A stretch of 64,000 nt of DNA, from assembly GCF_016919705.1 (NCBI RefSeq), contig NZ_CP070369.1:310001-374000 (forward strand), written 5' to 3'. Each line of letters starts with the position of its first letter. Within the stretch, counting starts at the first letter, position 1. A program made the position numbers and the translations under genes. Below the pieces are notes generated by a model, which worked only from the letters and a program-made list of their open reading frames with translations, ran no database searches and was not told the origin of the DNA. This DNA is from Paracoccus methylovorus. Lineage in GTDB: Bacteria; Pseudomonadota; Alphaproteobacteria; Rhodobacterales; Rhodobacteraceae. Positions 16,244 through 64,000 of this stretch are shown here, one piece after another.

Positions 16244-16247
16244 GGCG

Positions 16248-20521: not shown

Positions 20522-20534
20522 CCCGGTCGCCTCT

Positions 20535-20550
20535 TGTGACAAAAGTTACA
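20535..20550. promoter_or_regulatory. candidate RamB autoregulatory site
   Basis: TGTGAC and GTTACA face each other across AAAA, an imperfect palindrome 13 bases upstream of the ramB start in the 146-base gap before aceB. A further GTGAC half-site lies in the same gap near 20577. The placement fits a regulator binding between the divergent ramB and aceB promoters. The assignment is by position only. Confidence 0.4.
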
Positions 20551-40555: not shown

Positions 40556-40603
40556 CCTCTTTTCCTTTCCTCCCGTGATATTGTGCTTATTGGTGATGGC
40601 GAA

Positions 40604-42241: not shown

Positions 42242-42249
42242 GCGGGCCC

Positions 42250-43352: not shown

Positions 43353-44336
43353 ATGCAACATCGAATGCTTGGCACTGACCTTTCGGTATCCGCCATCGGT
43401 CTGGGGTGCATGGGAATGAGCGAGTTCTACGGCCCGCGCGACGATGCAGAGTCGCTGGCGGTTCTGCGACGTTCCGTCGATCTTGGCCTCGACTTTCTCG
43501 ATACCGCCGACACCTATGGCCCGCACCATAACGAGGAACTGATCGGCCGTTTCCTTGCCGACAGCCGTGCGGACGTGAAGATCGCCACAAAGTTCGGCAT
43601 TGTACGCAAGCCCGGCGAATACACCCGCACCATCGACAACAGCGCCGACTATATGCGCCGCGCCTGTGAAGGATCGCTTAAACGGCTGGGGGTGGACCAG
43701 ATCGACCTGTATTACGTTCACCGCATCAATCGCGAACGTCCCATCGAGGAGACGATGGAGGCGCTGGCTGCGCTGAAACGTGAGGGCAAGATCGGCCATA
43801 TCGGGCTTTGCGAGGTCAGTGCCGAAACGCTGCGCCGTGCCCATGCCGTTCATCCGGTGACGGCGGTGCAGACCGAATACTCGCTCTGGACCCGCGATGT
43901 GGAAGCCGAAATCCTGCCGACCTGCCGTGAGCTGGGCATCGGCTTCGTCGCCTATTCCCCGCTTGGCCGCGGATTCCTGACAGGCCGGTTTCAGGCAGGA
44001 TCGCAGTTCGAAGAGGGCGATTTCCGTGCAACCCTGCCGCGCTTCGCACCGGAAAATGCCGCAACCAACGGTGCGCTGGTCGATGTCGTGCGCGGTATTG
44101 CCGCCGAGAAAGGCTGCACTCCGGCGCAGGTTGCGCTGGCATGGCTGCTGGCCAAGGGCGACGACATTGTGCCGATCCCCGGCACGAGGCAGATCAAGTA
44201 TCTCGAAGAAAACGCTGCTGCAGCGTCAATCGAACTTGGAGAGGCAGAGCGCATCGCTCTCGAACAGGCCCTGTCCGGGCTGCCTGTTTCCGGAGAGCGC
44301 TACACCGCCGAAGGCATGAAGGGCGTCAACGCATGA
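43353..44336 (+). CDS. aldo/keto reductase
   Basis: A 327-residue NADPH-dependent oxidoreductase. The catalytic set is visible: Asp in FLDTADTYGPHHNEEL, the same segment's Tyr, Lys in IATKFG and His in YYVHRIN. The pattern matches the AKR group near YhdN/tyrosine-A types. ATG 43353 follows AAGGAGC. It is a single gene and its substrate is unknown. The 260 bases after it hold nothing recognised. Confidence 0.92.
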   Translation: MQHRMLGTDLSVSAIGLGCMGMSEFYGPRDDAESLAVLRRSVDLGLDFLDTADTYGPHHNEELIGRFLADSRADVKIATKFGIVRKPGEYTRTIDNSADYMRRACEGSLKRLGVDQIDLYYVHRINRERPIEETMEALAALKREGKIGHIGLCEVSAETLRRAHAVHPVTAVQTEYSLWTRDVEAEILPTCRELGIGFVAYSPLGRGFLTGRFQAGSQFEEGDFRATLPRFAPENAATNGALVDVVRGIAAEKGCTPAQVALAWLLAKGDDIVPIPGTRQIKYLEENAAAASIELGEAERIALEQALSGLPVSGERYTAEGMKGVNA

Positions 44337-44596: not shown

Positions 44597-45559
44597 TCAG
44601 CCGTTGCGCAGAGATGATGGCGTACAACCGAATTCCTGCCGGAAGGCGCGGCTCATCGCCGAGGCGTCGGCGTAGCCGCAACGGGTCGCAATTTCGGGGA
44701 TGCTCTGCTTTGTGTGCGTGGCCAGCCTGCGGGCCTCGCGCAGCCTCAGGGTCTTGTAAAGCAGTTGTGGCGTGGTGCCCACCTCGGCCCGAAACAGCGC
44801 TTCCAATCCTTTGCGCCCAAGGCCCATTTCGGCGGCGATCTGGGGAATGGTCAGGGGAGCCTCGATATTGCGGCGCATCAGGGCGACAGCGGCGTGAATC
44901 GCAGCATCCGCATTCGCAAAGCTTTTCAAGGGCGGATCGCTGGTGCCATGCATGAACAGCGCCGCCACCTCGAGCGACAGCATCGGGCCGTGTTGTTCGC
45001 GGATCAAGTGCAGGATCAGCTCAAAACTTGTCGTAACTCCGCCGCAGCTCAGCCGGTCGCCGTCGACGATGAAGCGGTCGGGCCGGACCTCGACCTCGGG
45101 AAAGGCCTCGGCCATGGCGTCCAACTCATCCCAGTGTATCGTCGCTCGCCGCCTGTCCAGCAGACCTGCGGCGGCCAGGAGCCAGCTACCGGTATCCATG
45201 CCAACCAGTGCCTGGTAGCGCCGCTGTGCCGCCACCCGCAGAGCACGCAGGTTGGCGGCGCTGGCATGCTTGCGAAAGTCATAGCTGGGCATCACCGCCA
45301 GATAATCGCCGCCCTCGCTGCGGGGCAGGGCGATTTCGGGCACCACCGGCAGCCCGCTGGATGAAACGACAGGCATGCCGTCGATACTGAGAAAGCGCCA
45401 ACGATACAGCGGTTTGCGCGAAAGCGTGTTGGCTGCCCGCAGGGGCTCGACCGCATTGGCAAGGCAATGATTTGAAAATTGGTCGAACAGCAGGATGTCC
45501 ACCTGTCGCGATCTTTCGCTTTGCTTCCATTTTTGCATGGTGATTGGACAACCCTGCAT
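44597..45559 (-). CDS. GlxA-type AraC-family regulator (DJ-1/PfpI plus AraC)
   Basis: A 320-residue regulator. The N-terminal DJ-1/PfpI-like domain contains DILLFDQFSNHCLANAVEPL and VGMDTGSWLLAAAGLL. The C-terminal AraC domain (about residues 215-315) has two helix-turn-helix units, IPQIAAEMGLGRKGLEALFR and IPEIATRCGYADASAMSRAFR. Regulators of this group (CdhR, GbdR) control carnitine and glycine betaine catabolism in Pseudomonas. It is divergent from the acyl-CoA dehydrogenase of the predicted gamma-butyrobetaine branch, so a role in inducing it fits. ATG 45538 is an alternative start. Confidence 0.87.
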   Translation of the reverse strand: MQGCPITMQKWKQSERSRQVDILLFDQFSNHCLANAVEPLRAANTLSRKPLYRWRFLSIDGMPVVSSSGLPVVPEIALPRSEGGDYLAVMPSYDFRKHASAANLRALRVAAQRRYQALVGMDTGSWLLAAAGLLDRRRATIHWDELDAMAEAFPEVEVRPDRFIVDGDRLSCGGVTTSFELILHLIREQHGPMLSLEVAALFMHGTSDPPLKSFANADAAIHAAVALMRRNIEAPLTIPQIAAEMGLGRKGLEALFRAEVGTTPQLLYKTLRLREARRLATHTKQSIPEIATRCGYADASAMSRAFRQEFGCTPSSLRNG

Positions 45560-45614
45560 GACCTGCCTGTCCGATCTGTTCCATCCTCTGCAAGAATCAG
45601 CAAGAGGAAGCGCG

Positions 45615-46775
45615 ATGGATTTCGGGCTGAACGAAGAACAGCAGATGATCGTCTCGACGGTGCGCAGTTTCGTGGAAAACGAAATCTACCCGCATGAGGC
45701 GCTGATCGAACGTACGGGCCAAGTGCCCCATGAGCTGGGCAACGAGATCAAACGCAAAGTAATTGATCTTGGCTTTTACGCCTGCAACTTTCCCGAAGAT
45801 GTGGGCGGCGCGGGACTGTCGCATCTGGACGTAACGCTGGTCGAACGCGAACTGGGCCGGGGATCCATGGCGCTGACCCATTTCTTTGGCCGCCCCCAGA
45901 ACATCCTGATGGCCTGCACGGGCGACCAGCGCGAACGCTATCTGCTGCCGGCTGTGCGGGGCGAGCGCATGGATGCGCTGGCGATGACCGAACCCGACGC
46001 GGGCTCGGATGTGCGCGGCATGAAATGTCAAGCTTTGCGCGACGGAGGTGATTGGGTCGTCAACGGCTCCAAGCATTTCATTTCCGGCGCCGAACATGCC
46101 GATTTCTTCATCGTTTTCGTGGCGACCGGGACCGATGACACGCCGCAGGGGCCAAAGCGACGGATCACATGTTTTCTGGTCGATCGCGACACGCAGGGGT
46201 TTGAGGTGCGGGACGGCTATAACTCTGTCTCGCATCGCGGCTATCGCAACTACACGCTGTATTTCGACAACTGCCGTCTGCCCGATGCACAGGTGCTGGG
46301 CGAGGTCGATGGCGGTTTCAAGGTCATGAACGACTGGCTTTACGCCACCCGCCTGACGGTGGCTGCCTTTTGCGTGGGCCGTGCGCGGCGCTGCTTCAAT
46401 CATGCCTTGCACTATGCCGCTGAGCGTCGCCAGTTCGGCCAGCCTATCGCGCGATTTCAAGGCATCGGGTTTCAGGTTGCCGACATGATCACCGAAATCG
46501 ACGCCGCCGACTGGCTGACCTTGTCCGGCGCGTGGCGTCTGGACAAGAACCTGCCCGCCAACCGCGAGATCGCCAGCGCCAAGCTGTTTGCCTCGGAAAT
46601 GCTGGCGCGAGTGACAGATGCGACGCTGCAGATCCACGGCGGCATGGGGTTGATGGACGATTTCCCGATCGAACGGTTCTGGCGCGACGCCCGCGTCGAA
46701 CGCATCTGGGACGGCACATCCGAAATCCAGCGCCATATCATCAGCCGCGACCTGTTCCGGCCCTTGGGTGTGTGA
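45615..46775 (+). CDS. acyl-CoA dehydrogenase, predicted gamma-butyrobetainyl-CoA dehydrogenase
   Basis: A 386-residue flavoprotein of the acyl-CoA dehydrogenase family. FAD-binding and substrate motifs AMTEPDAGSDVRGMKC and WVVNGSKHFISGAEHADFF are present, and the C-terminal IERFWRDARVERIWDGTSEI carries the catalytic-loop region. The next two genes encode an ADP-forming acyl-CoA ligase and a CaiD-like hydratase. Together they match the known rhizobial route gamma-butyrobetaine to its CoA ester, to crotonobetainyl-CoA, to carnitinyl-CoA. The substrate is assigned from context. ATG 45615 follows AGAGGAAG; the stop overlaps the ligase start (TGATG). Confidence 0.85.
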   Translation: MDFGLNEEQQMIVSTVRSFVENEIYPHEALIERTGQVPHELGNEIKRKVIDLGFYACNFPEDVGGAGLSHLDVTLVERELGRGSMALTHFFGRPQNILMACTGDQRERYLLPAVRGERMDALAMTEPDAGSDVRGMKCQALRDGGDWVVNGSKHFISGAEHADFFIVFVATGTDDTPQGPKRRITCFLVDRDTQGFEVRDGYNSVSHRGYRNYTLYFDNCRLPDAQVLGEVDGGFKVMNDWLYATRLTVAAFCVGRARRCFNHALHYAAERRQFGQPIARFQGIGFQVADMITEIDAADWLTLSGAWRLDKNLPANREIASAKLFASEMLARVTDATLQIHGGMGLMDDFPIERFWRDARVERIWDGTSEIQRHIISRDLFRPLGV

Positions 46776-48823
46776 TGGCCGGGGAACCCATGGAAAGGCT
46801 GCTTCGTCCCCGGTCGATCGCTGCCGTGGGGGGCAGCGGCTGGTGCGGCAATATCGTCCGTGCCTGCCAGCGCATCGGCTATCAGGGGCAGCTCTGGCCG
46901 GTTCATCCCTCACAACCCCAGATCGGCGGCCTGCCTGCCTTTGCGCGGTTGGCCGATCTACCCGAAACCCCCGATGCGGTTTTCATTGGCGTGAACCGCG
47001 ATGCTGCGCTGGGTGTCATGGCTGATCTGGCCGCGATGGGGGCCGGCGGCGCGGTCTGTTTTGCAGCAGGCTTTAGCGAGGCCGCAGCCGAACTGACGGA
47101 CGGGGCCGCGATGCAGGACAGGCTTGTCATGGCGGCGGGGTCGATGCCCTTTCTGGGGCCGAATTGCTACGGTTTCATCAATGCGTTGGACGGTGCCGCG
47201 CTCTGGCCCGACCAGCACGGTTGCGACAGGGTTGATCGCGGCGTGGCCATCATCACGCAAAGCTCGAACATCGCGCTGAACCTGACGATGCAGCGACGCG
47301 GTTTGCCCCTTGGCTACGTGGTGACGCTGGGCAATCAGGCGCGGGTGGGCTTTGCCGAGGTCGGGCAGGCCCTGCTGGCCGATCCGCGCGTGACCGCCCT
47401 TGGGCTGCATATCGAGGGCATTGGCGATCTGCCCGGTTTCGAGGCATTGGCAGCGACCGCCCGCCATCTGGGCAAGCGCATCGTCGCGCTGAAGGTCGGG
47501 GTGTCCGATCAGGCAAGGGCGGCTACGGTGTCACATACGGCCTCGCTGGCCGGATCGGATGCGGCGGGGCGGGCGCTGCTGCGGCGCCTTGGCATAGCGC
47601 AGGTTGACAGCCTGCCGGTGCTGCTTGAAACCCTGAAACTCCTGCATGTCGCCGGTTCCTTGTCCTCGAACCGCATCGCGTCTCTGTCCTGTTCGGGGGG
47701 TGAGGCCAGCCTGATGGCGGATGCGGGGCTGGCGCATGGTGTCGATTATCCGGCGCTGAACCGGGCGCAACTCGATGCGCTACGTCATGCCTTGGGTCCC
47801 AGGGTCGCGCTGTCCAACCCTTTGGATTACCACACCTATATCTGGGGGGATCGCGAGGCGATGACGAATTGCTTTCGCGCCATCGCCGACCCGTCGCTGG
47901 CCATGACCTGTCTGGTGCTGGACTTTCCGCGGATCGACCGCTGCACGGCACAAGAGTGGGATGACGTGGTGACCGCGTTGGAATCTTCCCGCATCGGCAG
48001 CCCTGCGCCCGCGATGCCGCTTGGCCTGATTGCGACCTTGCCCGAAAACATACCTGAAGACATTGCATGGCGATGTGTCATGCAAGGAATCGTCCCGTTT
48101 TGCGGCATTTCGGAAGCAATGGCCGCGATTGCGGTCGCGGCAAGCCCTGTTCCGGTGGACGATCCAGCGCCGGTCTGGCCGCTTGGGCCCGAACCCGCTG
48201 TCCCGATCCTGCTGACGGAGGTGCAGGCCAAGGCTGAACTGGGGGCCCATGGCCTGCGCATCCCCAAAGCAAGCCCCGCGCGAACCGCCGATCAGGCTGC
48301 CGAAACTGCCGAACGGATCGGCTTTCCGGTCGTGCTGAAAGGTGAGGGCTTTGCCCACAAGACCGAAGCCGGGGCGGTGGTGTTGGATCTGTCCGGCACC
48401 GACACTGTCCGCGATGCCGCCCTACAGATGCAGGCGCCGTCCTTCCTGATCGAGGAAATGGTGACTGGCGGCATCGCCGAGCTTCTGATCGGCGTGACCC
48501 GCGACCCCCCTCATGGCTGGCTGCTGACCATTGGCGCGGGCGGCGTGCTGACTGAACTGCTGCGCGACAGCGCCGCATTGCTGCTGCCGGTGACGCGTGC
48601 CGATATTGAACAGGCGGTACGTGGCCTGAACATCTGGCCGCTTCTTCAGGGCTGGCGTGGTGCGCCTGCCGCCAGCCTTGACGCCATCACTGCCACTGTC
48701 ATGGCGGTGCAGGATTATGTCCATACGACACCCCGTCTTGTCGAAGTCGAAATCAACCCGCTCATTTGTCGCACCGATGATGCCGTCGCGGTCGACGCGC
48801 TGATCCGAAGGGAAAATACATGA
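46775..48823 (+). CDS. acyl-CoA ligase, ADP-forming type (fused subunits), predicted betaine-CoA ligase
   Basis: A 682-residue NDP-forming acyl-CoA synthetase. It has the CoA-binding domain (LLRPRSIAAVGGSGWCGNIV), the ligase segments GPNCYGF and VSHTASLAGSD, and a C-terminal ATP-grasp domain (VVLKGEGFAHKTEAGAVVLD). This type makes acyl-CoA from acid, CoA and ATP, releasing ADP and phosphate. In the usual carnitine route an AMP-forming CaiC ligase or a CaiB CoA transferase does this; here the ADP-forming type appears to replace them. The substrate, gamma-butyrobetaine, crotonobetaine or carnitine, is inferred. Confidence 0.8.
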   Translation: MAGEPMERLLRPRSIAAVGGSGWCGNIVRACQRIGYQGQLWPVHPSQPQIGGLPAFARLADLPETPDAVFIGVNRDAALGVMADLAAMGAGGAVCFAAGFSEAAAELTDGAAMQDRLVMAAGSMPFLGPNCYGFINALDGAALWPDQHGCDRVDRGVAIITQSSNIALNLTMQRRGLPLGYVVTLGNQARVGFAEVGQALLADPRVTALGLHIEGIGDLPGFEALAATARHLGKRIVALKVGVSDQARAATVSHTASLAGSDAAGRALLRRLGIAQVDSLPVLLETLKLLHVAGSLSSNRIASLSCSGGEASLMADAGLAHGVDYPALNRAQLDALRHALGPRVALSNPLDYHTYIWGDREAMTNCFRAIADPSLAMTCLVLDFPRIDRCTAQEWDDVVTALESSRIGSPAPAMPLGLIATLPENIPEDIAWRCVMQGIVPFCGISEAMAAIAVAASPVPVDDPAPVWPLGPEPAVPILLTEVQAKAELGAHGLRIPKASPARTADQAAETAERIGFPVVLKGEGFAHKTEAGAVVLDLSGTDTVRDAALQMQAPSFLIEEMVTGGIAELLIGVTRDPPHGWLLTIGAGGVLTELLRDSAALLLPVTRADIEQAVRGLNIWPLLQGWRGAPAASLDAITATVMAVQDYVHTTPRLVEVEINPLICRTDDAVAVDALIRRENT

Positions 48824-49599
48824 ACCCGATCCGAACCGAAATCCGTGGCCATGTCTTCGAGGTTACTCTGGACCGCCCCAATGCCAATGCCATCGACCTC
48901 GCCACCAGCCGCATCATGGGCGAGGTCTTTACCTGTTTTCGTGACGACCCCGAATTGCGCGTTGCCATCCTGACCGGCTCAGGCGAGAAATTCTTTTGCC
49001 CCGGATGGGACCTGAAGGCGGCGGCGGGCGGCGATGCGGTCGACAGCGACTATGGTGTCGGCGGATTTGGCGGCTTGCAGGAATTGCGGGGGCTGAACAA
49101 GCCCGTCATTGTCGCCGTGAACGGCATCTGTTGCGGTGGCGGGCTGGAACTGGCCCTGTCGGGCGACATTATCCTGGCCGCCGATCATGCGACTTTCGCC
49201 CTGCCGGAAATCAGGTCGGGCACGGTTGCCGACGCTGCCTCGATCAAGCTGCCCAAGCGCATCCCCTATCACATCGCGATGGAAATGCTGTTGACCGGCC
49301 GCTGGATTGACGCGCCCGAAGCCGCGCGTTGGGGATTGGTGAACCGCATCCTGCCCTCCGACCGCCTGATGACCGCCGCGCGAGCACTGGCTGACGAACT
49401 GGCCTCTGGCCCTCCGCTGGTTTTTGCGGCGATCAAGGAAATTGTCCGCGAGGCCGAGGACATGAAGTTTCAGGACGCCCTGAACCGCATCACCAAAAGC
49501 CAGTTCGAAACCGTCGAAAAGCTTTACCGATCCGAGGACCAGATCGAAGGTGCGCGCGCCTTTGCGGAAAAGCGCGATCCGGTCTGGACGGGGCGCTAA
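48820..49599 (+). CDS. caiD: crotonobetainyl-CoA hydratase (CaiD-like)
   Basis: A 259-residue enoyl-CoA hydratase. It matches E. coli CaiD in many places by eye: TLDRPNANAIDLATSRIMGE, GEKFFCPGWDLKAAA, VAVNGICCGGGLELALSGDI and the ending AFAEKRDPVWTGR, a CaiD hallmark. CaiD hydrates crotonobetainyl-CoA to L-carnitinyl-CoA. The ATG overlaps the ligase stop. It ends in a four-base overlap with the stop of the convergent regulator gene (49596-49599). Confidence 0.88.
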   Translation: MNPIRTEIRGHVFEVTLDRPNANAIDLATSRIMGEVFTCFRDDPELRVAILTGSGEKFFCPGWDLKAAAGGDAVDSDYGVGGFGGLQELRGLNKPVIVAVNGICCGGGLELALSGDIILAADHATFALPEIRSGTVADAASIKLPKRIPYHIAMEMLLTGRWIDAPEAARWGLVNRILPSDRLMTAARALADELASGPPLVFAAIKEIVREAEDMKFQDALNRITKSQFETVEKLYRSEDQIEGARAFAEKRDPVWTGR

Positions 49600-50537
49600 C
49601 CCCTCTGTGTTCCCCTGATGGTTTCTCCGAAATGCGCCCGATAGGCCCGCGCCAAGGTCGAGGCCGATGAAAAGCCCGTGCGAGAGGCGATCTCGTCCAG
49701 TGGCTGAGCGGAATCGATAGCCAGGGCACGGGCGTGAGACAGGCGGATCTGCCGGTAATATCCACCCGCAGCCATGCCCAGATGGGCGCGGAACAGCCTG
49801 TCCATGGTGCGCGTCGACAAGGCCGCCCGGGCCGCGATGGCCACCAGCGGCAAGGGGTGTTCGGCACTTTCGCGCATCGCCAGAATAGCGCGTTGCAAAG
49901 GGGCGGGCAGAGCGCGGTCGATCATGCGGGCCTGTCCGGCCATCGCGGGGTCCATATGGGTGCGACCGAACATATTGCCGACATCATAGCGTAAAGCGTC
50001 GTCGGCCCTTTGCCCGATCAGGTCCAGCGACCAGGATAAAACCCCCTGTGCGCCGCCCGCCGTGACGGTATTGCCGTCGGTGACCCAAGGGGCCGAGATG
50101 ACCTCGACTTCGGGGAATGCCTCGGCCAACGCTTCATGTTCCATCCAGTGGATTGTGGCGCGACGACCGGCCAGCAACCCCGCCTCGGCTAGCATCCATG
50201 CGCCCGTGTCGATGCCGCCGACCAAGGGCAGTCCGCGGCCCTTTTGCAACACCTGCTGCAAGGTCACCCGGCGCAGATGATCACGCACACCATAGCCCGC
50301 GACCACGATCAACGCGTCCGTTGCGCCAACGCGGGGCAAGGCGATGTCGACTCCGATCGACAATCGCGAGGAACTGGTCACTACCGCTCCGTTAGGCGAG
50401 GCGATCTGCCACGAAAACAGCCGCTTTCCGCTAAGGTCCCGGGCCGCGCGCAATGGCTCGATCGCATTGGCCAACACCATGTTGGAAAAGCCGTCAAGCA
50501 GGAGGAATGTCAGATGAAAGGCTGAAAATGGCTGCAT
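49596..50537 (-). CDS. GlxA-type AraC-family regulator, probable carnitine regulator (CdhR-like)
   Basis: A 313-residue regulator with a DJ-1/PfpI-like domain (FLLLDGFSNMVLANAIEPLR; VGGIDTGAWMLAEAGLL) and a C-terminal AraC domain (about residues 215-310; RTMDRLFRAHLGMAAGGYYR, LDEIASRTGFSSASTLARAYR). CdhR in Pseudomonas, of the same architecture, activates carnitine degradation. It is divergent from the BKACE gene of the carnitine operon, its probable target. ATG 50537 is used; TTG 50543 would add two residues. It is related to, but distinct from, the regulator at 44597-45559. Confidence 0.87.
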   Translation of the reverse strand: MQPFSAFHLTFLLLDGFSNMVLANAIEPLRAARDLSGKRLFSWQIASPNGAVVTSSSRLSIGVDIALPRVGATDALIVVAGYGVRDHLRRVTLQQVLQKGRGLPLVGGIDTGAWMLAEAGLLAGRRATIHWMEHEALAEAFPEVEVISAPWVTDGNTVTAGGAQGVLSWSLDLIGQRADDALRYDVGNMFGRTHMDPAMAGQARMIDRALPAPLQRAILAMRESAEHPLPLVAIAARAALSTRTMDRLFRAHLGMAAGGYYRQIRLSHARALAIDSAQPLDEIASRTGFSSASTLARAYRAHFGETIRGTQRG

Positions 50538-50618
50538 AGGCAAAGATTATGGCCGAATATGCATAACACACCAAGCAAATCCTCGTAACCTGAAAGGATC
50601 ACCTATCCGAGGATTCCG

Positions 50619-51506
50619 ATGAACCACGATGTATTCATCACCTGCGCCGTTACCGGATCAGGACAAAGCCACAAGAAATCCGACCTTGTGCCGGTCACCC
50701 CCAAGCAGATCGCCGATGCCTGTATCGAAGCCGCGAATGCCGGCGCCGCCATCGCCCATGTGCATGTCCGCGACCCCGAAACCGGCGCGCCGTCCCGCGA
50801 TCCGGCGCTATATCGCGAGGTCGTGGACCGGGTACGCTCGTCCGATGTCGATGTTGTCCTGAACCTGACTGCCGGGATGGGTGGCGACATCGTGCTGGGT
50901 TCGGCCGAGGCGCCTTTGCCGCTTTCCCCCCAATCCGACATCGTCGGCGCGACCGAGCGGCTGGTTCATGTCGAGGAACTGCTGCCCGAGATCTGCACCC
51001 TCGACTGCGGCACGATGAACTTTGCCGAAGCCGATTATGTCATGACCAACACGCCGGGCACGCTTCGCGCCATGGCCGCGCGCATTCAGGCGGCAGGCGT
51101 GCGCCCGGAAATCGAGGTTTTTGACACCGGCCATCTGTGGCTGGCGAAAACGCTGGTGGATGAAGGTCTTATCGACGATCCTGTGATGATCCAGCTTTGC
51201 ATGGGTATCCCTTACGGTGCCCCGAATGATCCCAACAGCCTGATGGCGATGGTGAACAATATCCCGGCGGGATGGGTCTATTCCATGTTTTCCATCGGGC
51301 GGATGCAGATGCCCTATGTCGCTCAGGCCGCACTTGCGGGCGGCAATGTCCGTGTGGGGCTTGAGGACAACATCTGGCTGGATCGCGGGGTTCTGGCCCG
51401 CAACGGCGATCTTGTCGAACGCGCCTCGACAATTCTGAATGCCATGGGCTGCCGCATTCTTGGCCCGGCAGAGGTGCGCGAAAAACTGAAGCTGACCCGC
51501 CGCTGA
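50619..51506 (+). CDS. cdhC: beta-keto acid cleavage enzyme (BKACE), predicted dehydrocarnitine cleavage enzyme
   Basis: A 295-residue TIM-barrel enzyme of the BKACE family. The zinc ligands His47 and His49 lie in [13 protein letters not shown], and a Glu in [14 protein letters not shown] is in the third ligand position. In carnitine degradation this family joins 3-dehydrocarnitine with acetyl-CoA, yielding betainyl-CoA and acetoacetate. The carnitine dehydrogenase two genes downstream supports that role. ATG 50619 follows GAGGATT. It is the first gene of the operon that carries the ABC importer. Confidence 0.9.
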
Positions 51507-51537
51507 ACGGCAGGGCGCCACAACAGGGAGAAAGAAT

Positions 51538-53106
51538 ATGACGATTCGCAACGGAATCTCGCGCCGCGGTCTGCTGGCCGGGGCTGCCGGCATGACCGCG
51601 ACAGGCATCATGGCGGGTGGACTGATCCTGCCGCGCGGCGCCTTGGCGCAATCGGCACCGCAAAAGGGCGGCCAGTTCCGCATCGGCCATTCCGGGGGCG
51701 CGACCTCGGACACGATCGACCCGGCGACCTTTGCCGCCGGTCCGGTGGTGACGGCGATGCTGGCCGTTTGCAACAACCTGATCGAGATCGACGCCAAGGG
51801 GCAGGCTGTTCCCGAACTGGCGGAAAGCTATGAACCCGACGCCGAGGCTCGCATCTGGACCTTTCGCATCCGCGATGCGCAATTCGGTGACGGGCGCAAG
51901 GTGACGGCGAATGATGTCGTCGCATCCTTCAACCACCATCGGGGAGACAACACGGTCTCGGGGGCCAAGGGCGCTCTGGCGCAGGTCAGGGATATCCGCG
52001 CGGATGGCGACAATGTCGTGATGTTTGAACTGGAAAGCGGCAATGCCGATTTCGCCTATCTGACCTCGGATTACCATTTCATCATCATGCCTGCCAATAG
52101 CGACGGCACGCTGAACTGGCAGTCGGGGTTGGGCACGGGTGGCTATACGCTGGTTGATCACGAGCCCGGCGTCCGCATCACGCTGAAGCGCCGCGACGAT
52201 TACTGGAAGCCCGACCGGGCGTGGTTCGACGATGTCACGCTGATGACCATCAACGACCCGACCGCGCGCCAGAACGCCTTGATGACCGGCGAGGTCGATG
52301 CCGTCAACGGCCCCGACCTGTCCACGATCCACCTGCTGCAACGCCGTCCAGGCATCACGCTGGTCGAAACTACCGGCACCGCACATTACACCATGCCGGC
52401 GTTCTGTGATGTCGCCCCCTTCAATGACGTCAATGTCCGGTTGGCGCTGAAACATGCGATCAACCGCCAGGAAATCATCGAAAAGGTGCTGCGCGGCTAT
52501 GGCCAGGTGGCCAATGACAGCCCGATTGCGCCGGCGAACCGCTATTATGCGGCCGACCTGCCGCAAAACAGCTATGACCCCGACAAGGCGAAACATTACC
52601 TGCAAAAGGCGGGGCTCAGCGACCTGACGGTGGAGCTGTCGACCTCGAACGCTGCCTTTACTGGCGCTGTCGATGCGGCGCAGTTGTTTCAGCAGTCGGC
52701 CAAGGCGGCGGGCATCAATATCAATGTCAAACGTGAGCCCGAGGACGGTTACTGGTCGAACGTCTGGCTGAAAAAGCCGTTCTGTGTCGGCTATTGGAAC
52801 GGCCGTCCGACCGAGGACGACATGTTCAGCCTGGTCTATTCCAAGGGCGCGGAATGGAACGAAAGCCATTGGGACAACGCCCACTTCAATGAACTGCTGC
52901 TGAAGGCGCGGGCCGAGCTGGACGATAACCTGCGCCGCGAAATGTATACCGAAATGCAGGGCCTTGTCAGTCAGGACGGTGGCACGATCATTCCGGTCTT
53001 CGTCAATTACGTCGATGCGCATAACGACAAGGTCGCGCATGGCGAGGTCGCGGGCGATCGCTTCTTCGATGGCTGGAAACTGGTTGAAAGGTGGTATGCG
53101 GCATGA
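51538..53106 (+). CDS. ABC transporter substrate-binding protein, family 5, predicted carnitine/acylcarnitine binder
   Basis: A 522-residue periplasmic protein with a Tat-type signal (ISRRGLLAGAAGMTATGIMA, cleavage near ALAQS). Family 5 motifs include VPELAESYEPDAEARIW and DGYWSNVWLKKPF. It is closely related to the binding protein at 8594-10150. Family 5 proteins usually bind peptides or sugars, but its place inside the carnitine operon, between cdhC and the carnitine dehydrogenase, suggests carnitine, an acylcarnitine or a related betaine. It starts at ATG 51538 after AGGGAGAAAG. Confidence 0.85.
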   Translation: MTIRNGISRRGLLAGAAGMTATGIMAGGLILPRGALAQSAPQKGGQFRIGHSGGATSDTIDPATFAAGPVVTAMLAVCNNLIEIDAKGQAVPELAESYEPDAEARIWTFRIRDAQFGDGRKVTANDVVASFNHHRGDNTVSGAKGALAQVRDIRADGDNVVMFELESGNADFAYLTSDYHFIIMPANSDGTLNWQSGLGTGGYTLVDHEPGVRITLKRRDDYWKPDRAWFDDVTLMTINDPTARQNALMTGEVDAVNGPDLSTIHLLQRRPGITLVETTGTAHYTMPAFCDVAPFNDVNVRLALKHAINRQEIIEKVLRGYGQVANDSPIAPANRYYAADLPQNSYDPDKAKHYLQKAGLSDLTVELSTSNAAFTGAVDAAQLFQQSAKAAGININVKREPEDGYWSNVWLKKPFCVGYWNGRPTEDDMFSLVYSKGAEWNESHWDNAHFNELLLKARAELDDNLRREMYTEMQGLVSQDGGTIIPVFVNYVDAHNDKVAHGEVAGDRFFDGWKLVERWYAA

Positions 53107-54554
53107 AGATCGCAGCAATCGGTGGCGGCGTGATTGGCGGGGGCTGGATCGCGCGGTTCATCCTGAACGGCCATGATGTCAGCATCTTCGACCCGCACCC
53201 GGAAGCGCAGCGAATTGTAGGCGAGGTGATGGCGAATGCCTCGCGCGCCTATGACAAGCTGTTTCAGGCCCCCTTGCCGGAGCCCGGTCGCCTGATCTGG
53301 ACCAGTTCCATTGCCGAGGCGGTGGCGGGTATGGATTACATTCAGGAAAGCGTTTCTGAACGGCTGGATCTCAAGCATCGCATCATTGCGGAAATCGAGG
53401 CGGCGGCGCCGAAGGATGCAATCATCGGCTCGTCGACGTCGGGTTTCAAACCGTCGGAACTGCGGCAGGGCGCGAAGCATCCGGACCGCATCCTTGTCAC
53501 CCATCCATTCAACCCGGTCTACCTGCTTCCGGTAGTCGAGGTCGTGGGCGGCGGAAAGGCGGCGGATCGGGCCTCGGCGCTGTTGTCGCAGGTCGGCATG
53601 AAACCCGTGACCATCGCCCGCGAAATCGACGCCCATATCGGCGACCGCCTGCTGGAGGCCGTTTGGCGCGAAGCGTTGTGGTTGGTCAAGGACGGCATCG
53701 CCTCGACACAAGAAATCGACGATGTCATCCGCTACGGCTTTGGCTTGCGTTGGGCGCAGATGGGCCTGTTCGAGACCTATCGCATCGCCGGTGGCGAGGC
53801 AGGGATGAGACATTTCCTGGCGCAATTCGGACCTGCGCTGAAATGGCCCTGGACCAAGCTGATGGATGTTCCCGATCTGGACGATGCGCTGATCGACCAG
53901 ATCGCCAGCCAATCCGATGCGCAATCGGGTGCCTATTCCATCCGTGAACTGGAGCGCATCCGCGACGACAATCTGGTCGGCATCTTTCACGCGCTGAAGG
54001 CCAACGACTGGGGCGCGGGCCAGCCCCTGCGCGAGGCCGAAAACCGTTTCTACAAACGCAAGGTTGCGGCACCGTCGACCTATCCCTTGATGCTGCATCA
54101 GGCGCGGGTCGGCGCGTCGTGGGTCGATTACAACGGCCATATGACCGAATTCCGCTATTTGCAGGTTTTCGGCGATGCGACGGACGCATTCCTTATCCAT
54201 ATGGGACTGGACGAGTCCTGGATCGCCAAGGGCTTCTCGGCCTACACGGTCGAAACCCACATCCGCCATCTGGCCGAGGTGAAGGCTGGTGAGAAACTGC
54301 GCGTTGAAACCCGTCTGCTGGGCCATGACGCCAAGCGCTTTCGCTTGCATCACCATATCCTGCGCGACAATGGCGACGAGGTTGCGACCGGCGAACACAT
54401 GCTGGTCTTTGTCGATACGGCCAAGGGTCGCTCGACCTCCATGCCCCACCAGTTTCAGCACCGTCTGGAGGAGATCGCCCGGAAGGAAACCGGCCCCCTG
54501 CCTGACCATGCCGGAGCGGGGATCCGCACCCTTTGCACGCAGGGGGCGGAATGA
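53103..54554 (+). CDS. carnitine 3-dehydrogenase fused to betainyl-CoA thioesterase (CdhA-CdhB)
   Basis: A 483-residue two-domain enzyme. Residues 1-310 are a 3-hydroxyacyl-CoA-dehydrogenase-like NAD enzyme: glycine loop IGGGVIGGGW (residues 6-15), SSTSGFKPSEL and THPFNPVYLLPVVEVV. Residues 330-483 are a hot-dog thioesterase (VGASWVDYNGHMTEFRYLQV, with the family Asp/Asn). Domain 1 oxidises L-carnitine to 3-dehydrocarnitine; domain 2 hydrolyses the betainyl-CoA from CdhC to glycine betaine. In Pseudomonas these are separate genes; the fusion is known in rhizobia and Rhodobacteraceae. ATG overlaps the upstream stop. Confidence 0.93.
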   Translation: MKIAAIGGGVIGGGWIARFILNGHDVSIFDPHPEAQRIVGEVMANASRAYDKLFQAPLPEPGRLIWTSSIAEAVAGMDYIQESVSERLDLKHRIIAEIEAAAPKDAIIGSSTSGFKPSELRQGAKHPDRILVTHPFNPVYLLPVVEVVGGGKAADRASALLSQVGMKPVTIAREIDAHIGDRLLEAVWREALWLVKDGIASTQEIDDVIRYGFGLRWAQMGLFETYRIAGGEAGMRHFLAQFGPALKWPWTKLMDVPDLDDALIDQIASQSDAQSGAYSIRELERIRDDNLVGIFHALKANDWGAGQPLREAENRFYKRKVAAPSTYPLMLHQARVGASWVDYNGHMTEFRYLQVFGDATDAFLIHMGLDESWIAKGFSAYTVETHIRHLAEVKAGEKLRVETRLLGHDAKRFRLHHHILRDNGDEVATGEHMLVFVDTAKGRSTSMPHQFQHRLEEIARKETGPLPDHAGAGIRTLCTQGAE

Positions 54555-55516
54555 GCACAAGTTCCCCCCTGACCCGCATGATCGTGTCACGGCTCGCCAT
54601 TGGTCTCTTCACGCTCTTCATCATATCGATTCTCGTCTTTCTGGCGGTCAGCTTGCTGCCGGGCGATATCGCGCAGCAGATCCTTGGTCAGTCCGCCACT
54701 GAGGAAACGGTGGCCGCGCTGCGTCGTGACCTTGGGCTGGACCAGCCGCTGGTCACCCGATATTTCGACTGGATCAGCGGCATCCTGACCGGCGATTTCG
54801 GCACATCGCTGGCGAATGGCCGGCCGATCTCGGACCTGCTGGCGGCGCGGCTGGGCAATACGATGTTTCTGGCCGCTTATGCGGCAGTGATCGCGGTGCC
54901 TATCGCAGTCCTCCTTGGACTGCTTGCGGCACTGTGGCGCGGAACATGGTTTGATCGCATCGCCAACGTGGCAACGCTGTCCGCGATCTCGTTTCCTGAA
55001 TTCTTTATCGCTTATATCCTGATGTTCTGGCTGTCGGTGCAGATGGGCTGGTTTCCGTCCATCGCCGATCCCGGCGTCGATCCGGGGCTGGGCGAGATGC
55101 TGTCGCGAGCCTTCTTGCCCGCGCTGACGCTGGTGCTGGTTGTTACCGCCCACATGATGCGGATGACGCGGGCGGCCGTCGTCAACGTCCTTGGCGCGCC
55201 CTATGTCGCCATGGCCCGGCTGAAGGGCGCGTCGCGCTGGCGCATCGTAACCCACCATGCGCTGCCCAATACCCTGGCACCGATCATCAACGTGATCGCG
55301 CTGAACATCGCATGGCTGATCACCGGCGTCGTCATCGTCGAGGTGGTCTTTGTCTATCCAGGCCTTGGCCAACTGATGGTCGACAGCGTCAGCAACCGCG
55401 ACATACCGGTCGTGCAGGCCTGCGCACTGATCTTTGCGGCGGTCTATATCCTGCTCAACATCATCGCGGACGTGCTGGCGATCGCCACCAATCCGCGACT
55501 GCTGCATGCGAGGTAG
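54551..55516 (+). CDS. ABC transporter permease (DppB-type), carnitine operon
   Basis: A 321-residue permease with the DppB hallmark LLPGDIAQQILGQSATEETV and the EAA loop MARLKGASRWRIVTHHALPN. It closely parallels the permease at 17111-18061. It overlaps the dehydrogenase stop by four bases and is followed after four bases by the DppC-type subunit. It makes the channel for the operon's importer. Confidence 0.92.
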   Translation: MSTSSPLTRMIVSRLAIGLFTLFIISILVFLAVSLLPGDIAQQILGQSATEETVAALRRDLGLDQPLVTRYFDWISGILTGDFGTSLANGRPISDLLAARLGNTMFLAAYAAVIAVPIAVLLGLLAALWRGTWFDRIANVATLSAISFPEFFIAYILMFWLSVQMGWFPSIADPGVDPGLGEMLSRAFLPALTLVLVVTAHMMRMTRAAVVNVLGAPYVAMARLKGASRWRIVTHHALPNTLAPIINVIALNIAWLITGVVIVEVVFVYPGLGQLMVDSVSNRDIPVVQACALIFAAVYILLNIIADVLAIATNPRLLHAR

Positions 55517-55520
55517 GACG

Positions 55521-56375
55521 ATGGTGACCGCCCCCCCTCGCAGATTAGGCACCTCAGCTTGGCGCTTGGTCCGGACGATACCGATCACGGCCATGCTTGG
55601 GATTGCGATCATCGCCGCCTACGCCGTGATCGCGATCTTTGCACCGCTGCTGGCACCCCATGGCGAGGCCGAAATCGTCGGCGCCCAGTTTGAGCCCTGG
55701 GGCAGCAACTATCTGCTGGGCACCGACAACCTAGGCCGCGATCTGGCATCCCGACTGATCTGGGGGGCAAGGAACACCGTCGGCGTCGCGCTGGCCACAA
55801 CCGTGCTGGCCTTTGTGATCGGTGCGACCACCGGGCTGCTGGCCGCGGCGCTTGGCGGCTGGCCCGACATGATCCTGTCGCGCATCGTTGATATCCTGAT
55901 GGCCGTTCCCGCACTGATCTTTACCCTGCTGGCGCTGTCCGCGCTTGGCCCGGGCATCTGGAACCTGATCATCGTCATCGCCGTTCTGGATGCGACGCGG
56001 GTTTACCGGCTGACCCGCGCCACCGGGATGAACGTCATCGTCATGGATTACGTCGAGGCCGCCCGCCTGCGTGGCGAAGGCACATGGTGGATCATTCGCC
56101 ACGAGGTGCTGCCCAACATCGCCGCGCCGCTGATCGCGGAATTCGGCCTGCGCTTCTGCTTTGTCTTTCTGACGATTTCCGCGCTCAGCTTCCTTGGGCT
56201 TGGCCTGCCGCCGCCGATGGCGGACTGGGGTGGCATGGTGCGCGACAATGCGGCGCTGATCGCCTTTGGTGATTCCACGCCCCTGCTGCCCGCGGCCTGC
56301 ATCGCGGTGCTGACCGTTGCCGTCAACTTTGTCGTGGACTGGATGCTGCACCACGCCTCTGGCCTGAAGGACTGA
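55521..56375 (+). CDS. ABC transporter permease (DppC-type), carnitine operon
   Basis: A 284-residue permease. The N-terminal pattern YLLGTDNLGRDLASRLIWGA is typical of DppC, and the EAA loop is EAARLRGEGTWWIIRHEVLPN. The C-terminal half has GLGLPPPMADWGGMVRDNA, as in the paralogue at 16248-17114. It begins at ATG 55521, four bases after the DppB stop, and is followed by the ATPase gene. Confidence 0.92.
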   Translation: MVTAPPRRLGTSAWRLVRTIPITAMLGIAIIAAYAVIAIFAPLLAPHGEAEIVGAQFEPWGSNYLLGTDNLGRDLASRLIWGARNTVGVALATTVLAFVIGATTGLLAAALGGWPDMILSRIVDILMAVPALIFTLLALSALGPGIWNLIIVIAVLDATRVYRLTRATGMNVIVMDYVEAARLRGEGTWWIIRHEVLPNIAAPLIAEFGLRFCFVFLTISALSFLGLGLPPPMADWGGMVRDNAALIAFGDSTPLLPAACIAVLTVAVNFVVDWMLHHASGLKD

Positions 56376-56379
56376 CGCC

Positions 56380-57981
56380 ATGCTGCTTGATATCCAGAAC
56401 CTCAAGATCGAGGCACGAACCGACGACGGCTGGACCCCGATCCTGCACGGCGTCGATCTGCAGGTCGCCAAGGGCGAGGTCGTCGGGTTGATCGGCGAAT
56501 CCGGGGCGGGGAAATCGACGCTTGGACTGGCCTCGATGGGCTATGCCGCGCCGGGACTGCGGTTTGCCGGCGGCAAGGTCGTATTCGACGGCACCGACCT
56601 GCTGGCGCTGCCCGATTCCCGACGCAACGCCTTTCGCGGGTGTCGCATCGCCTATGTCGCGCAATCGGCGGCAGCGAGCTTCAATCCCGCATGGCGGCTG
56701 ATCGGACAGTTCTGCGAAGGCCCGAAAATTCACCATACGGCCAAGCGCGCAGAAGCAGAGGCCTTTGCCCGGCAGCTTTACGCCCAGATGCACTTGCCCG
56801 ACCCCGACCATTTTGGCCTGCGCTTTCCGCATCAGGTCTCGGGCGGGCAGTTGCAGCGGGCGATGGTCGCAATGGCGATGGCCTGCCGCCCCGACCTTAT
56901 CGTCTTTGACGAACCGACGACCGCACTGGACGTGACGACGCAGATCGGCGTGCTGGCCGCGATCCGGCAGGCGGTGGAAAACTTCGGTACGGCGGCGATC
57001 TATATCACCCACGACCTTGCCGTCGTCGCCCAGATGGCCGACCGCATCAAGATCATGCGCCACGGCCGCGAGGTCGAAGAGGCGCCGACCCGCCAGATAA
57101 TGCAGGCCCCGCGCGAAGATTATTCTCGTTCGTTGTGGGCTGTGCGCGACTTCCAGAGGCCCGAGCGCGCGCTGCCGCAATCCAGCCACGCGGCGATCCG
57201 CATCGCGGATGTCACGGCGGGCTATGGTTCGGCGCTGGTGCTGAAGGATGTCGAGTTTTCGTTGCCGAAAGGGGCAACGGTGGCGGTCGTCGGCGAATCC
57301 GGTTCGGGAAAATCGACCACGGCGCGCGTCATTACCGGCCTGTTGCCCCCGATCAAGGGCCGGGTCGAGCTGAATGGCCAGACCCTGCCCCCGCGCTTTT
57401 CCGACCGCAGCCGCGAACAGTTGCGGCAGGTGCAGATGATCTATCAAATGGCCGATACCGCACTAAACCCGCGCCAGACCGTCCGCCAGATCCTGTCGCG
57501 CCCGCTGAGCTTTTATACCGACCTGACCGGGCGGGCGCGCGACGAACGGCTGGCGCAGCTTCTGGACCAGATAGAGTTGGATCCCAAGCGTTTCCTCGAC
57601 CGTCTGCCCGGCGAATTGTCGGGGGGACAAAAGCAGCGCATCGGCATTGCCCGCGCGCTGGCAGCCAACCCCGAGGTCATCATCTGCGACGAGGTAACAA
57701 GTGCGTTGGATCAACTGGTATCCGAGGGAATCCTTCGCCTTCTCAGCCGATTGCAGGATGAACAAGGGCTGACCTATATGTTCATCACTCATGACATCTC
57801 CACTGTCCGGGCCATCGCGGACGAGGTTGTCGTCATGCGCCAGGGAGAGGTCATGGATCGTGGTGGCAAGGCCGAGGTCCTGGACCCGCCGCGCCATCCC
57901 TATACGGTCGAACTGCTGGCATCGGTGCCCCAACCCGACCCCGACTGGCTGACCCGCCGCATCGCCGAAGGTGTCGCATGA
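56380..57981 (+). CDS. dipeptide-type ABC transporter ATPase, fused DppD-DppF, carnitine operon
   Basis: A 533-residue double ATPase. Walker A motifs are GESGAGKST (about residue 40) and GESGSGKST (about residue 306). The matching Walker B segments are [12 protein letters not shown] and [11 protein letters not shown], with a signature SGGQ in each half ([15 protein letters not shown]). It parallels the fused ATPase at 14633-16243 along its whole length, which indicates a duplication of the entire importer. It energises the permeases just upstream. Confidence 0.92.
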   Translation: MLLDIQNLKIEARTDDGWTPILHGVDLQVAKGEVVGLIGESGAGKSTLGLASMGYAAPGLRFAGGKVVFDGTDLLALPDSRRNAFRGCRIAYVAQSAAASFNPAWRLIGQFCEGPKIHHTAKRAEAEAFARQLYAQMHLPDPDHFGLRFPHQVSGGQLQRAMVAMAMACRPDLIVFDEPTTALDVTTQIGVLAAIRQAVENFGTAAIYITHDLAVVAQMADRIKIMRHGREVEEAPTRQIMQAPREDYSRSLWAVRDFQRPERALPQSSHAAIRIADVTAGYGSALVLKDVEFSLPKGATVAVVGESGSGKSTTARVITGLLPPIKGRVELNGQTLPPRFSDRSREQLRQVQMIYQMADTALNPRQTVRQILSRPLSFYTDLTGRARDERLAQLLDQIELDPKRFLDRLPGELSGGQKQRIGIARALAANPEVIICDEVTSALDQLVSEGILRLLSRLQDEQGLTYMFITHDISTVRAIADEVVVMRQGEVMDRGGKAEVLDPPRHPYTVELLASVPQPDPDWLTRRIAEGVA

Positions 57982-58862
57982 TCAGCGACCCGCAAGTGCT
58001 GGATTTCATCGCCGCAACAGAAGCCGCCTATCCGGCCGAGGCGAATGGTGCAGGCCCCGATGACAACCGCCGCCATTACGATGCGATGTGCGCAGTGTTT
58101 CGCGGACCGCGTCCAGATGGGCTTCAGGTCGCAGACCACAATATCGGCGGTGTGCGCTGCCGTGTCTATGGGGCGGAAACGCCGGTTTTCGTGCTTTATC
58201 TGCATGGCGGCGGCTTTGTGGTCGGCGGGCTGGATAGTCATGACGACGTCTGTGCGGACATAGCCGATGCGACCGGGTTGCAGGTGATAGCGGTGGATTA
58301 CCGGCTTGCGCCTGAACACCGCTGGCCCGCGCAGCTTGACGATGCCCGCGCAGTCTGGCGGGCTTTGTCCCGGCCGGGCATCGTCGTGGGCGACAGTGCG
58401 GGTGGGGCGCTGACGGCGGCGCTTTGCCTGTCGGAACGGGGGCGCCACGCACCACTTGGGCAGGTGCTGATCTATCCCGGGCTTGGCGGCGACGGCCACG
58501 CGCCGTCCTATACCGAAAATGCCGAGGCCCCGCTGCTAAGAAGCGTGGATATCCTTACCTATCACCGGCTGCTGCATGGTGAGCGTCCGGTCACGGACCC
58601 GCTGGCTCGTCCGTTGCAGGTGGCGGATCTGTCCTGTCTGCCGCCTGCCTTCATAGTGACAGCGGATATCGATCCGCTGCGCGATGACGGGCGCGACTAT
58701 GCTGCCCGGCTGCGCAAGGCGGGCAATACCGTGCATCTGCGCAACGAGGCCGAGTTGCCCCACGGCTACCTGCGCGCGCGCCGCAGCAGCGACAGGGCAA
58801 GGCGCAGCTTTCAGGCGGTTATTGCAAAGATCGCGACCTTGGCCGCGCTGGATCCGCCCTGA
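57978..58862 (+). CDS. alpha/beta hydrolase (HSL family), possible acylcarnitine esterase
   Basis: A 294-residue hydrolase of the hormone-sensitive lipase group. The oxyanion-hole motif is HGGG at residues 76-79, the nucleophile is Ser140 in GDSAGG, and the likely Asp and His lie in VTADIDPLRDDG and ELPHGYLRA. It is the last gene of the carnitine operon, with a four-base overlap to the ATPase. Hydrolysis of O-acylcarnitine esters after uptake would explain both its place and the dipeptide-type (larger-ligand) importer. This is inference. A partial hairpin near 58866-58895 may end the transcript. Confidence 0.8.
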   Translation: MISDPQVLDFIAATEAAYPAEANGAGPDDNRRHYDAMCAVFRGPRPDGLQVADHNIGGVRCRVYGAETPVFVLYLHGGGFVVGGLDSHDDVCADIADATGLQVIAVDYRLAPEHRWPAQLDDARAVWRALSRPGIVVGDSAGGALTAALCLSERGRHAPLGQVLIYPGLGGDGHAPSYTENAEAPLLRSVDILTYHRLLHGERPVTDPLARPLQVADLSCLPPAFIVTADIDPLRDDGRDYAARLRKAGNTVHLRNEAELPHGYLRARRSSDRARRSFQAVIAKIATLAALDPP

Positions 58863-62063: not shown

Positions 62064-62094
62064 AAATCTTTCCTCCAGAATGTATGAGGCTGCT

Positions 62095-63848: not shown

Positions 63849-64000
63849 CCTTTTCCCGCCTGCTGCGATAAGCGCCCTCCGGCGCCCGTGTGAGTGTTCC
63901 CGGTCGGGTAGCTGCAACCGCTTTAGCGGCCTTGGCATTATCCCGGCCATCGGGATCGGCCTTTCCCCATATATCCGGAGCATCGCCGCAAGCGTGTTCG

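Follow-up and report, generated by a model that had tools for sequence, protein, structure and literature searches.

Among the closest described counterparts of the locus studied here is the carnitine operon of Pseudomonas aeruginosa, ordered caiX-cdhCAB-hocS with a divergent cdhR, which includes a short-chain acylcarnitine hydrolase (PMC5806209). HocS is described as an esterase for acetyl- and butylcarnitine (PMC5979481). A second relevant system, MtgBCD, comes from Ruegeria pomeroyi, for which carnitine, choline and glycine betaine were the N-osmolytes tested: CdhABC, MtgC, MtgD, MetF2, RamA, DUF1638 and two MTTB-type proteins go up on these compounds, mutants reveal that growth on glycine betaine and methionine synthesis both require MtgC and MtgD, and in Sinorhizobium meliloti the mtg gene set is colocated (PMC12478193). 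Here, we analyze a stretch of 64,000 nucleotides (nt) of Paracoccus methylovorus, called the window throughout, which lies on C2, a contig of 460,652 bases in a genome of 4.38 Mb. With good confidence, we read a segment of it as a catabolic island for carnitine-type quaternary amines, consisting of two carnitine-related gene blocks and an adjoining mtgBCD-type system.

The original prediction, made from the letters of the DNA, had described a pathway from gamma-butyrobetaine to glycine betaine with its own importer and two regulators. All the genes that it named are present as long open frames at their predicted places, with strong family matches (e.g., 794 bits against a cutoff of 592 for model NF005716); it left unnamed an alpha/beta hydrolase lying within its own span (57978-58862) and stopped one block early, as an mtgBCD-type block with a third GlxA regulator adjoins block 2. 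The genes of the two blocks are, in window positions:

44597 to 45559, minus strand: GlxA/AraC regulator 1, GbdR-like, divergent from block 1 (GbdR model 208 bits, cutoff 480)
45615 to 46775, plus strand, block 1: acyl-CoA dehydrogenase, candidate gamma-butyrobetainyl-CoA dehydrogenase (Acyl-CoA_dh_1, 162 bits)
46775 to 48823, plus strand, block 1: ADP-forming acyl-CoA ligase, candidate gamma-butyrobetaine/carnitine:CoA ligase (CoA_binding_2, Succ_CoA_lig 104 bits, ATP-grasp_5 157 bits)
48820 to 49599, plus strand, block 1: CaiD-like crotonobetainyl-CoA hydratase (NF002936, 322 bits, cutoff 500)
49596 to 50543, minus strand: GlxA/AraC regulator 2, GbdR-like, divergent from block 2 (GbdR model 183 bits, cutoff 480)
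50619 to 51506, plus strand, block 2: BKACE (PF05853, 328 bits, cutoff 24.8)
51538 to 53106, plus strand, block 2: family-5 solute-binding protein with a twin-arginine-like leader (SBP_bac_5, 261 bits, cutoff 32.4)
53103 to 54554, plus strand, block 2: carnitine 3-dehydrogenase fused to a hot-dog thioesterase (NF005716, 794 bits, cutoff 592)
54551 to 55516, plus strand, block 2: Opp/Dpp-type permease B (BPD_transp_1, with permease C 113 and 114 bits)
55521 to 56375, plus strand, block 2: Opp/Dpp-type permease C (BPD_transp_1)
56380 to 57981, plus strand, block 2: fused two-domain ABC ATPase (ABC_tran, 190 bits)
57978 to 58862, plus strand, block 2: alpha/beta hydrolase of the hormone-sensitive-lipase type, candidate intracellular O-acylcarnitine esterase (Abhydrolase_3)

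The block 1 enzymes thus occupy 45615-49599 on the plus strand and, with regulator 1, the block spans 44597-49599; the operon genes of block 2 occupy 50619-58862, also on the plus strand, and with regulator 2, the block spans 49596-58862. The junction DNA moves five starts later than the first frame calls (45615, 46775, 53103, 54551 and 55521). Within the blocks there are eight junctions, of which five are overlaps of 1 or 4 bases and three are gaps of 4, 4 and 31 bases; because the junctions are that tight, each block is probably a single operon. Just 5' of BKACE (window 50509-50618), a TGGCnnCAT element, a possible operator, is shared by 13 of the 14 sequences compared, which range from Paracoccus to Agrobacterium fabrum; another, CATnATGCCA-like, occurs commonly in Paracoccus and was not found in the window or in A. 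fabrum among the same 14 sequences.

The likeness of block 2 to the P. aeruginosa operon extends to a divergent regulator, BKACE (CdhC), the carnitine dehydrogenase, the thioesterase, a binding protein and a hydrolase. Because the parts lists match, block 2 reads, by analogy, as an alphaproteobacterial counterpart of caiX-cdhCAB-hocS with another importer. In the window, the importer consists of a family-5 binding protein with its own permeases and ATPase, whereas P. aeruginosa uses CaiX with CbcWV; CaiX is an OpuAC-type binding protein, and the SBP_bac_5 protein of the window thus falls outside that type. Also unlike the P. aeruginosa operon, the dehydrogenase and thioesterase are fused and genes for gamma-butyrobetaine are added, while the hydrolase is likened to HocS by its place in the operon and its proposed role.

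In the pathway that we propose, the family-5 importer of block 2 would take up carnitine or an O-acyl derivative of it, and the alpha/beta hydrolase would free carnitine from the acyl ester. The carnitine 3-dehydrogenase would then convert carnitine to 3-dehydrocarnitine, BKACE would cleave this with acetyl-CoA, yielding betainyl-CoA and acetoacetate, and glycine betaine would be released from betainyl-CoA by the fused thioesterase. In block 1, the ADP-forming ligase would activate gamma-butyrobetaine, the acyl-CoA dehydrogenase would yield crotonobetainyl-CoA, and the CaiD-like enzyme would hydrate this to L-carnitinyl-CoA; L-carnitine, freed by the reversible ligase or a thioesterase, would enter the block 2 route. 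Finally, the neighboring mtgBCD-type cobalamin system would move a methyl group of glycine betaine to tetrahydrofolate. While gene identities at family level, layout and conservation are direct observations, we infer all substrates, the specificity of transport, regulation and the flow between the blocks. Every step from gamma-butyrobetaine to glycine betaine has a candidate gene except the release of L-carnitine from L-carnitinyl-CoA, which the reversible ligase or the thioesterase could perform. Of the pathway once called complete, the route, the importer and the two regulators hold up; a gene dedicated to that release was found in neither block.

The names in this scheme differ in firmness. 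In the two blocks, an NCBIfam equivalog cutoff is passed only by the carnitine dehydrogenase and by the ATPase (with the NikE and NikD models), and the remaining functional names, taken from gene context and kept residues, are candidate assignments supported at family level. The match of the dehydrogenase to NF005716 covers both domains (residues 5-479; 3HCDH_N and 4HBT_2), and its best named match among those listed, from P. denitrificans DSM 413, is 79% identical. The CaiD-like hydratase stays below the cutoff of NF002936, yet this model is its best of 73 families; the acyl-CoA dehydrogenase reaches 299 bits with its best NCBIfam model (cutoff 640). In a residue survey across loci, to which some genomes contribute two, the ligase keeps both His positions in 43 of the 43 loci readable at both sites (four more are readable at one or none), the hydratase keeps Glu110 and Glu130 in 46/46 readable loci (two unreadable), BKACE keeps His47, His49 and Glu249 in 99/99, and the hydrolase keeps Ser-Asp-His in 21/21. 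The ligase and hydratase positions we take to be catalytic and those of BKACE to be metal ligands. The usual catalytic base at the corresponding motif of acyl-CoA dehydrogenases is Glu, as in the five solved relatives shown of 54 listed; residue 366 of the window protein is Asp (WDGTSEIQR). Of the carnitine-cluster homologues, 47 are readable at this position and 46 of them have Asp as well (L085 alone has Glu; three are unreadable); so do 120 of the 120 database homologues listed, which are the top of 7992 and no less than 85% identical. Asp366 may mark gamma-butyrobetainyl-CoA dehydrogenases.

The joining of the gamma-butyrobetaine and carnitine branches in one locus, claimed in the original prediction, is real; that it is unusual was ruled out by comparison. 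With the fusion protein as query, public species genomes yielded at least 590 relatives, and for the best 80 loci (61 of them at least 19 kb long, most others cut by contig ends), the presence of genes was scored by set identity thresholds. All five enzymes occur together in 42 of the 80 loci, within a span of 6.3-7.2 kb, and 33 of the 80 have in addition all four parts of an Opp-type importer; the joint locus is therefore not special. Taken singly, BKACE is found in 73, the regulator in 57 and the four-part Opp-type ABC system in 41. Rhizobium, Shinella, Ensifer, Sinorhizobium and their relatives supply most of the full sets; the same enzyme set and importer are carried by three annotated Rhizobium plasmids (L188, L189 and L191). 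The joining of both branches is already present in relatives, where the Opp-type importer is usual, and the locus is a well-assembled and largely ordinary pathway, with known parts and similar joint clusters in many related bacteria.

The joined rhizobial clusters (e.g., L027 and L042 from Ensifer/Sinorhizobium; L023, L024, L026, L028 and L031 from Shinella; and the three Rhizobium plasmids) have the same regulator, enzymes and Opp-type ABC in ∼13-14 kb, with BKACE and the dehydrogenase first and the ABC genes last, whereas the window has block 1 ahead of block 2, with the binding-protein gene placed between those for BKACE and the dehydrogenase. Among the 15 congeneric genomes whose carnitine dehydrogenase is close (74-89%), 13 loci were read: the gene order of block 2 is the same wherever the contig reaches, and block 1 lies upstream of block 2 in three of them (L146/L147, L151 and L157). 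The eight genes of block 2, hydrolase included, appear in the same order on plasmid 1 of P. denitrificans PD1222 (WP_011751288 to WP_011751295) and on plasmid At of A. fabrum C58 (WP_010974595 to WP_010974602; permease WP_162180367); unlike in the window, no block 1 accompanies them in the stretches read. The position of regulator 2 is the same in the congeners, PD1222 and C58.

Of most interest in the locus is its putative pair of acylcarnitine importer and esterase. The hydrolase scores 203 bits with the LipP1 model (cutoff 350), and a close solved relative is 8yqj, titled "Lipase" (469 bits over 288 residues); a literature search for structure code 8YQJ found no paper. Its gene and that of the ATPase share 4 bases in the window and in PD1222 and 11 in A. 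fabrum, and the hydrolase gene directly follows that of the ATPase in 12 of the 13 close congeneric loci read. It is absent from the congeneric locus L158 and from L013, probably the same genome, though its place is visible. In the wider survey, it was scored in five of the 80 loci; for 33 of the 41 ABC loci, the place after the ATPase falls outside the stretch, and of the eight with at least 1.1 kb visible after the ATPase, five have a homologue nearby and three (L013, L034 and L037) do not. Four further plasmids, picked from 60 listed of 226 records, were read. In the three from Rhizobium with the full enzyme set, a CocE/NonD-type hydrolase (with Peptidase_S15 and PepX_C domains in the one tested) directly follows the ATPase, and next comes a convergent homologue of the window hydrolase, an Abhydrolase_3 protein 45-46% identical to it, ∼2 kb past the ATPase on the opposite strand. 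In the fourth, plasmid unnamed4 of Shinella sumterensis (L190), the stretch read contains no hydrolase homologue. On this plasmid, a related importer has as neighbors BKACE, two carnitine-dehydrogenase-like proteins (49-50%), a second binding protein, GcvT and a distantly related ligase, which together may form a pathway for a different quaternary amine.

The occurrence of ester hydrolases beside the importer in several orientations favors the import of acyl esters, and the presence of a homologue near the importer even in rhizobial clusters suggests the use of acylcarnitines. We therefore lean, slightly, toward reading block 2 as an O-acylcarnitine operon, whose importer would bind acylcarnitines, molecules larger than carnitine, and whose hydrolase would cleave them inside the cell like HocS. 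The conserved place behind the ATPase in congeners, the overlapping genes from Paracoccus to Agrobacterium, the homologues in five of eight informative ABC loci and on the three Rhizobium plasmids, and the intact Ser-Asp-His triad are consistent with this, as is the P. aeruginosa operon, which also holds an acylcarnitine hydrolase (PMC5806209). The four loci with a visible but empty place (L158, L013, L034 and L037) argue against it, and the substrates of both hydrolase and importer are proposed from gene context. That the importer instead serves free carnitine or gamma-butyrobetaine, the hydrolase being a general esterase carried along, would agree with the broad esterase family to which the enzyme belongs and with the ABC systems lacking a visible hydrolase in L013, L034 and L037; as genera ranging from Paracoccus to Agrobacterium and Rhizobium have the gene next to the importer, in varied orientations, we find this explanation rather doubtful.

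The importer itself could be a true peptide or metal-chelate transporter that happens to lie in the operon. An AlphaFold2 model of the binding protein, built with 30 of the 62 sequences found and having a mean pLDDT of 83, has the family-5 fold, with 17-24% identity to peptide, opine, nickel and sialic-acid proteins in the 50 matches shown, and the nearest solved structures include DppA- and NikZ-type proteins. Because relatives of ∼20% identity bind ligands as different as peptides, opines, nickel complexes and sialic acid, the fold does not give the ligand. The ATPase exceeds the models NikE TIGR02769 (387 vs. 333) and NikD TIGR02770 (358 vs. 319), and the binding protein and permeases fit nickel and Opp models best, all below cutoff; we have not filed the importer as a nickel type since each ATPase score is summed over two fused halves and the binding protein and permeases remain below the nickel models. 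The binding pocket provides a finer comparison. Residues 383 and 436 of Escherichia coli DppA, which we take to hold the carboxylate and amino ends of the peptide, are exchanged in entry 8z1z (R383D and D436R, by its title). DppA Asp436 aligns with Arg423 of the window protein, and Arg is found there in 30/30 carnitine-linked proteins; DppA Arg383 aligns, in a locally weak stretch, with or next to residue 371, where 30/30 have N, E, D or S. The window protein thus lacks the Asp and Arg of the DppA-type peptide pocket, the Arg part of this statement coming from the weak stretch of alignment. An Arg at the position of Asp436 and no Arg at that of residue 383 speak against dipeptides, a DppA-like paralogue in the genome (L169) keeps the Asp, and the importer genes are interleaved with BKACE and the carnitine dehydrogenase. 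Altogether, we consider a peptide or metal-chelate importer very improbable.

A carnitine-specific role of Arg423 was also entertained and is weakened by the genome itself. It has 18 SBP_bac_5 matches, the window protein included, one of them without a residue at the Arg423 position, and three paralogues (L173, L174 and L177) share the Arg. For this reason, Arg423 marks a clade of family-5 proteins and is not specific to carnitine. Other members of the clade come with importers of their own. A second Opp-type ABC set in the window (6069-18061) has a binding protein of the Arg-signature clade (8594-10150; 528 bits to the profile of carnitine-linked binding proteins), an ATPase (14633-16243) and permeases (16248-18061); these surround genes for a LysR regulator, a VanA-like Rieske oxygenase and reductase, an AstE/AspA-like protein, an aminotransferase and a FAD-linked oxidase. 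A third related importer elsewhere in the genome (L187; C4:1126001-1146000) has two tandem Arg-signature binding proteins, 42-43% identical to that of the window, permeases and an ATPase 54-56% identical, and a ligase homologue (31%) ∼3 kb away.

Downstream of block 2, and convergent with it, lies the block that would continue the route beyond glycine betaine:

59037 to 61100, minus strand: RACo/RamA-like corrinoid reactivase (RACo_C_ter, 284 bits), convergent with block 2
61116 to 62141, minus strand: MtgD-like methyl-corrinoid:tetrahydrofolate methyltransferase (NF005719, a domain model, 385 bits, cutoff 259)
62095 to 63324, minus strand: MetF2-like methylenetetrahydrofolate reductase (family match)
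63258 to 64000, minus strand: DUF5981 (MTHFR C-terminal-like) gene, running past the window end
beyond the window, to C2:378908: DUF1638; MtgC-like corrinoid protein; divergent MTTB protein (C2:375678-377249); third GlxA regulator

An MTTB protein, a corrinoid protein and a pterin methyltransferase are encoded together here, as in MtgBCD systems. The genome has a single MTTB protein (781 bits), its frame free of internal stops; the nearest solved relatives of this protein are 4yyc (935 bits, a putative trimethylamine methyltransferase and presumably an S. meliloti protein), 2qne (402 bits) and 9yce (400 bits, glycine betaine methyltransferase). The MtgC-like protein scores 216 bits with the MtgC model, below its cutoff of 370. 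Candidates for MtgB, MtgC, MtgD, RamA, DUF1638 and MetF2 are all present and clustered, like the known sets of R. pomeroyi and S. meliloti, and the block differs from theirs in lying beside a carnitine island. By analogy, it resembles a known system whose substrate would be the product of block 2, and glycine betaine is the predicted substrate of the window block as well.

The mtg block may instead be an independent neighbor, adjacent by an accident of replicon assembly. We compared 121 congeneric genomes. In all four congeners whose MTTB protein is close and whose flank is long enough (G206, G159, G195 and G240), the mtg cluster is kept, and in a fifth (G189) it is cut by the contig end; four genomes with a 65-66% identical MTTB protein have no mtg cluster in the stretches read. 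MTTB matches occur in 23 of the 121 genomes (41-100% identity) and the carnitine dehydrogenase in 57 (38-100%, some partial), and both in 15 (Fisher's test for co-occurrence, p 0.065); for the close MTTB clade only, the dehydrogenase is found in 5/6 vs. 52/115 other genomes (p 0.10). Of the 15 genomes, only two have the pair close together: this one (11 kb) and P. aminovorans on plasmid IV (12 kb), the latter with a dehydrogenase of a different clade and other genes in between. The separation in the remaining 13, several of them drafts with the two genes on different contigs, favors accident. The chance of at least two of 15 pairs falling within 15 kb is 0.006 in a 4-Mb genome and 0.17 if both genes usually reside on one 600-kb replicon, on which condition the two cases are unsurprising; for the close MTTB clade, where linkage is found in two of the five genomes having also the dehydrogenase, the chances of 0.0006 and 0.02, respectively, argue against accident, as do the different dehydrogenase clades in the two linked cases and the fact that the product of one block would be the substrate of the other. 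The case for a selected linkage of the two systems is weakened by the two of 15 genomes and by the two p values. We regard mere accident as a real possibility, if a little short of even, and functional clustering, not a conserved unit, as a plausible explanation of the adjacency.

The genome offers further candidate routes for the same compounds. Its candidate carriers include one BCCT and four OpuAC-type proteins, ChoX (432 bits, cutoff 379) being among the latter, and the original proposal that the importer replaces the usual carnitine carriers was dropped on these grounds. There is a Bhmt/MtgE-like protein (524 bits, cutoff 338), a MetH-length frame with a methyltransferase domain at C1:739434, MetE within the window (24128-26464) and two FAO_M/GcvT frames, which we take to be of the dimethylglycine/sarcosine dehydrogenase type. 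As BCCT, OpuAC and GbcAB homologues, the MetH-length frame and MetE are all present, the importer is not necessarily the sole route, nor is the mtg block. Unlike R. pomeroyi, this genome has the MetH-length frame, MetE, the Bhmt/MtgE-like gene and the GbcAB homologues beside the mtg block, and the idea of the mtg block as the only methionine route, as in Ruegeria, was judged unlikely given the MetH-length frame and MetE. Elsewhere in the window, a malate synthase (20668-22293) is accompanied by a divergent ScfR-type regulator of short-chain fatty-acyl-CoA (19088-20542), and just upstream of block 1 (39437-44336) are the TRAP genes DctP (39437-40555) and DctM (40604-42241) and an aldo-keto reductase (43353-44336).

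Several of these observations weigh against the island as we read it. Few of its proteins exceed NCBIfam equivalog cutoffs, and the acyl-CoA dehydrogenase reaches just 178 of the 540 bits set for the CaiA model NF002885; the ATPase passes models of nickel importers; and the release of L-carnitine from its CoA ester has no gene of its own. The ligand of the importer is a prediction in a genome with 17 other SBP_bac_5 matches, three of which share its Arg423. The adjacency of mtg and carnitine genes is not conserved, and the homologues of GbcA (525 of 670 bits) and GbcB (388 of 500 bits) would make a second demethylation route.

Overall, the island would bring together, in one compact and testable system, uptake, cleavage of the ester, oxidation as far as glycine betaine and a demethylation that depends on cobalamin. 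A literature search joining carnitine, glycine betaine, Paracoccus and corrinoid found no paper. We put forward, tentatively and with somewhat more doubt than belief, that block 2 represents a distinct alphaproteobacterial type of acylcarnitine-scavenging operon, with a family-5 importer of inverted pocket charges and a cytoplasmic esterase of the hormone-sensitive-lipase type, and that the island would lead from acylcarnitine or gamma-butyrobetaine to dimethylglycine, acetoacetate and methyl-tetrahydrofolate. The conserved hydrolase makes the acylcarnitine reading directly testable in P. denitrificans PD1222. If the importer does bind acylcarnitines, this would be a new function for family-5 ABC importers and would explain how Alphaproteobacteria gain access to acylcarnitines from eukaryotic matter.

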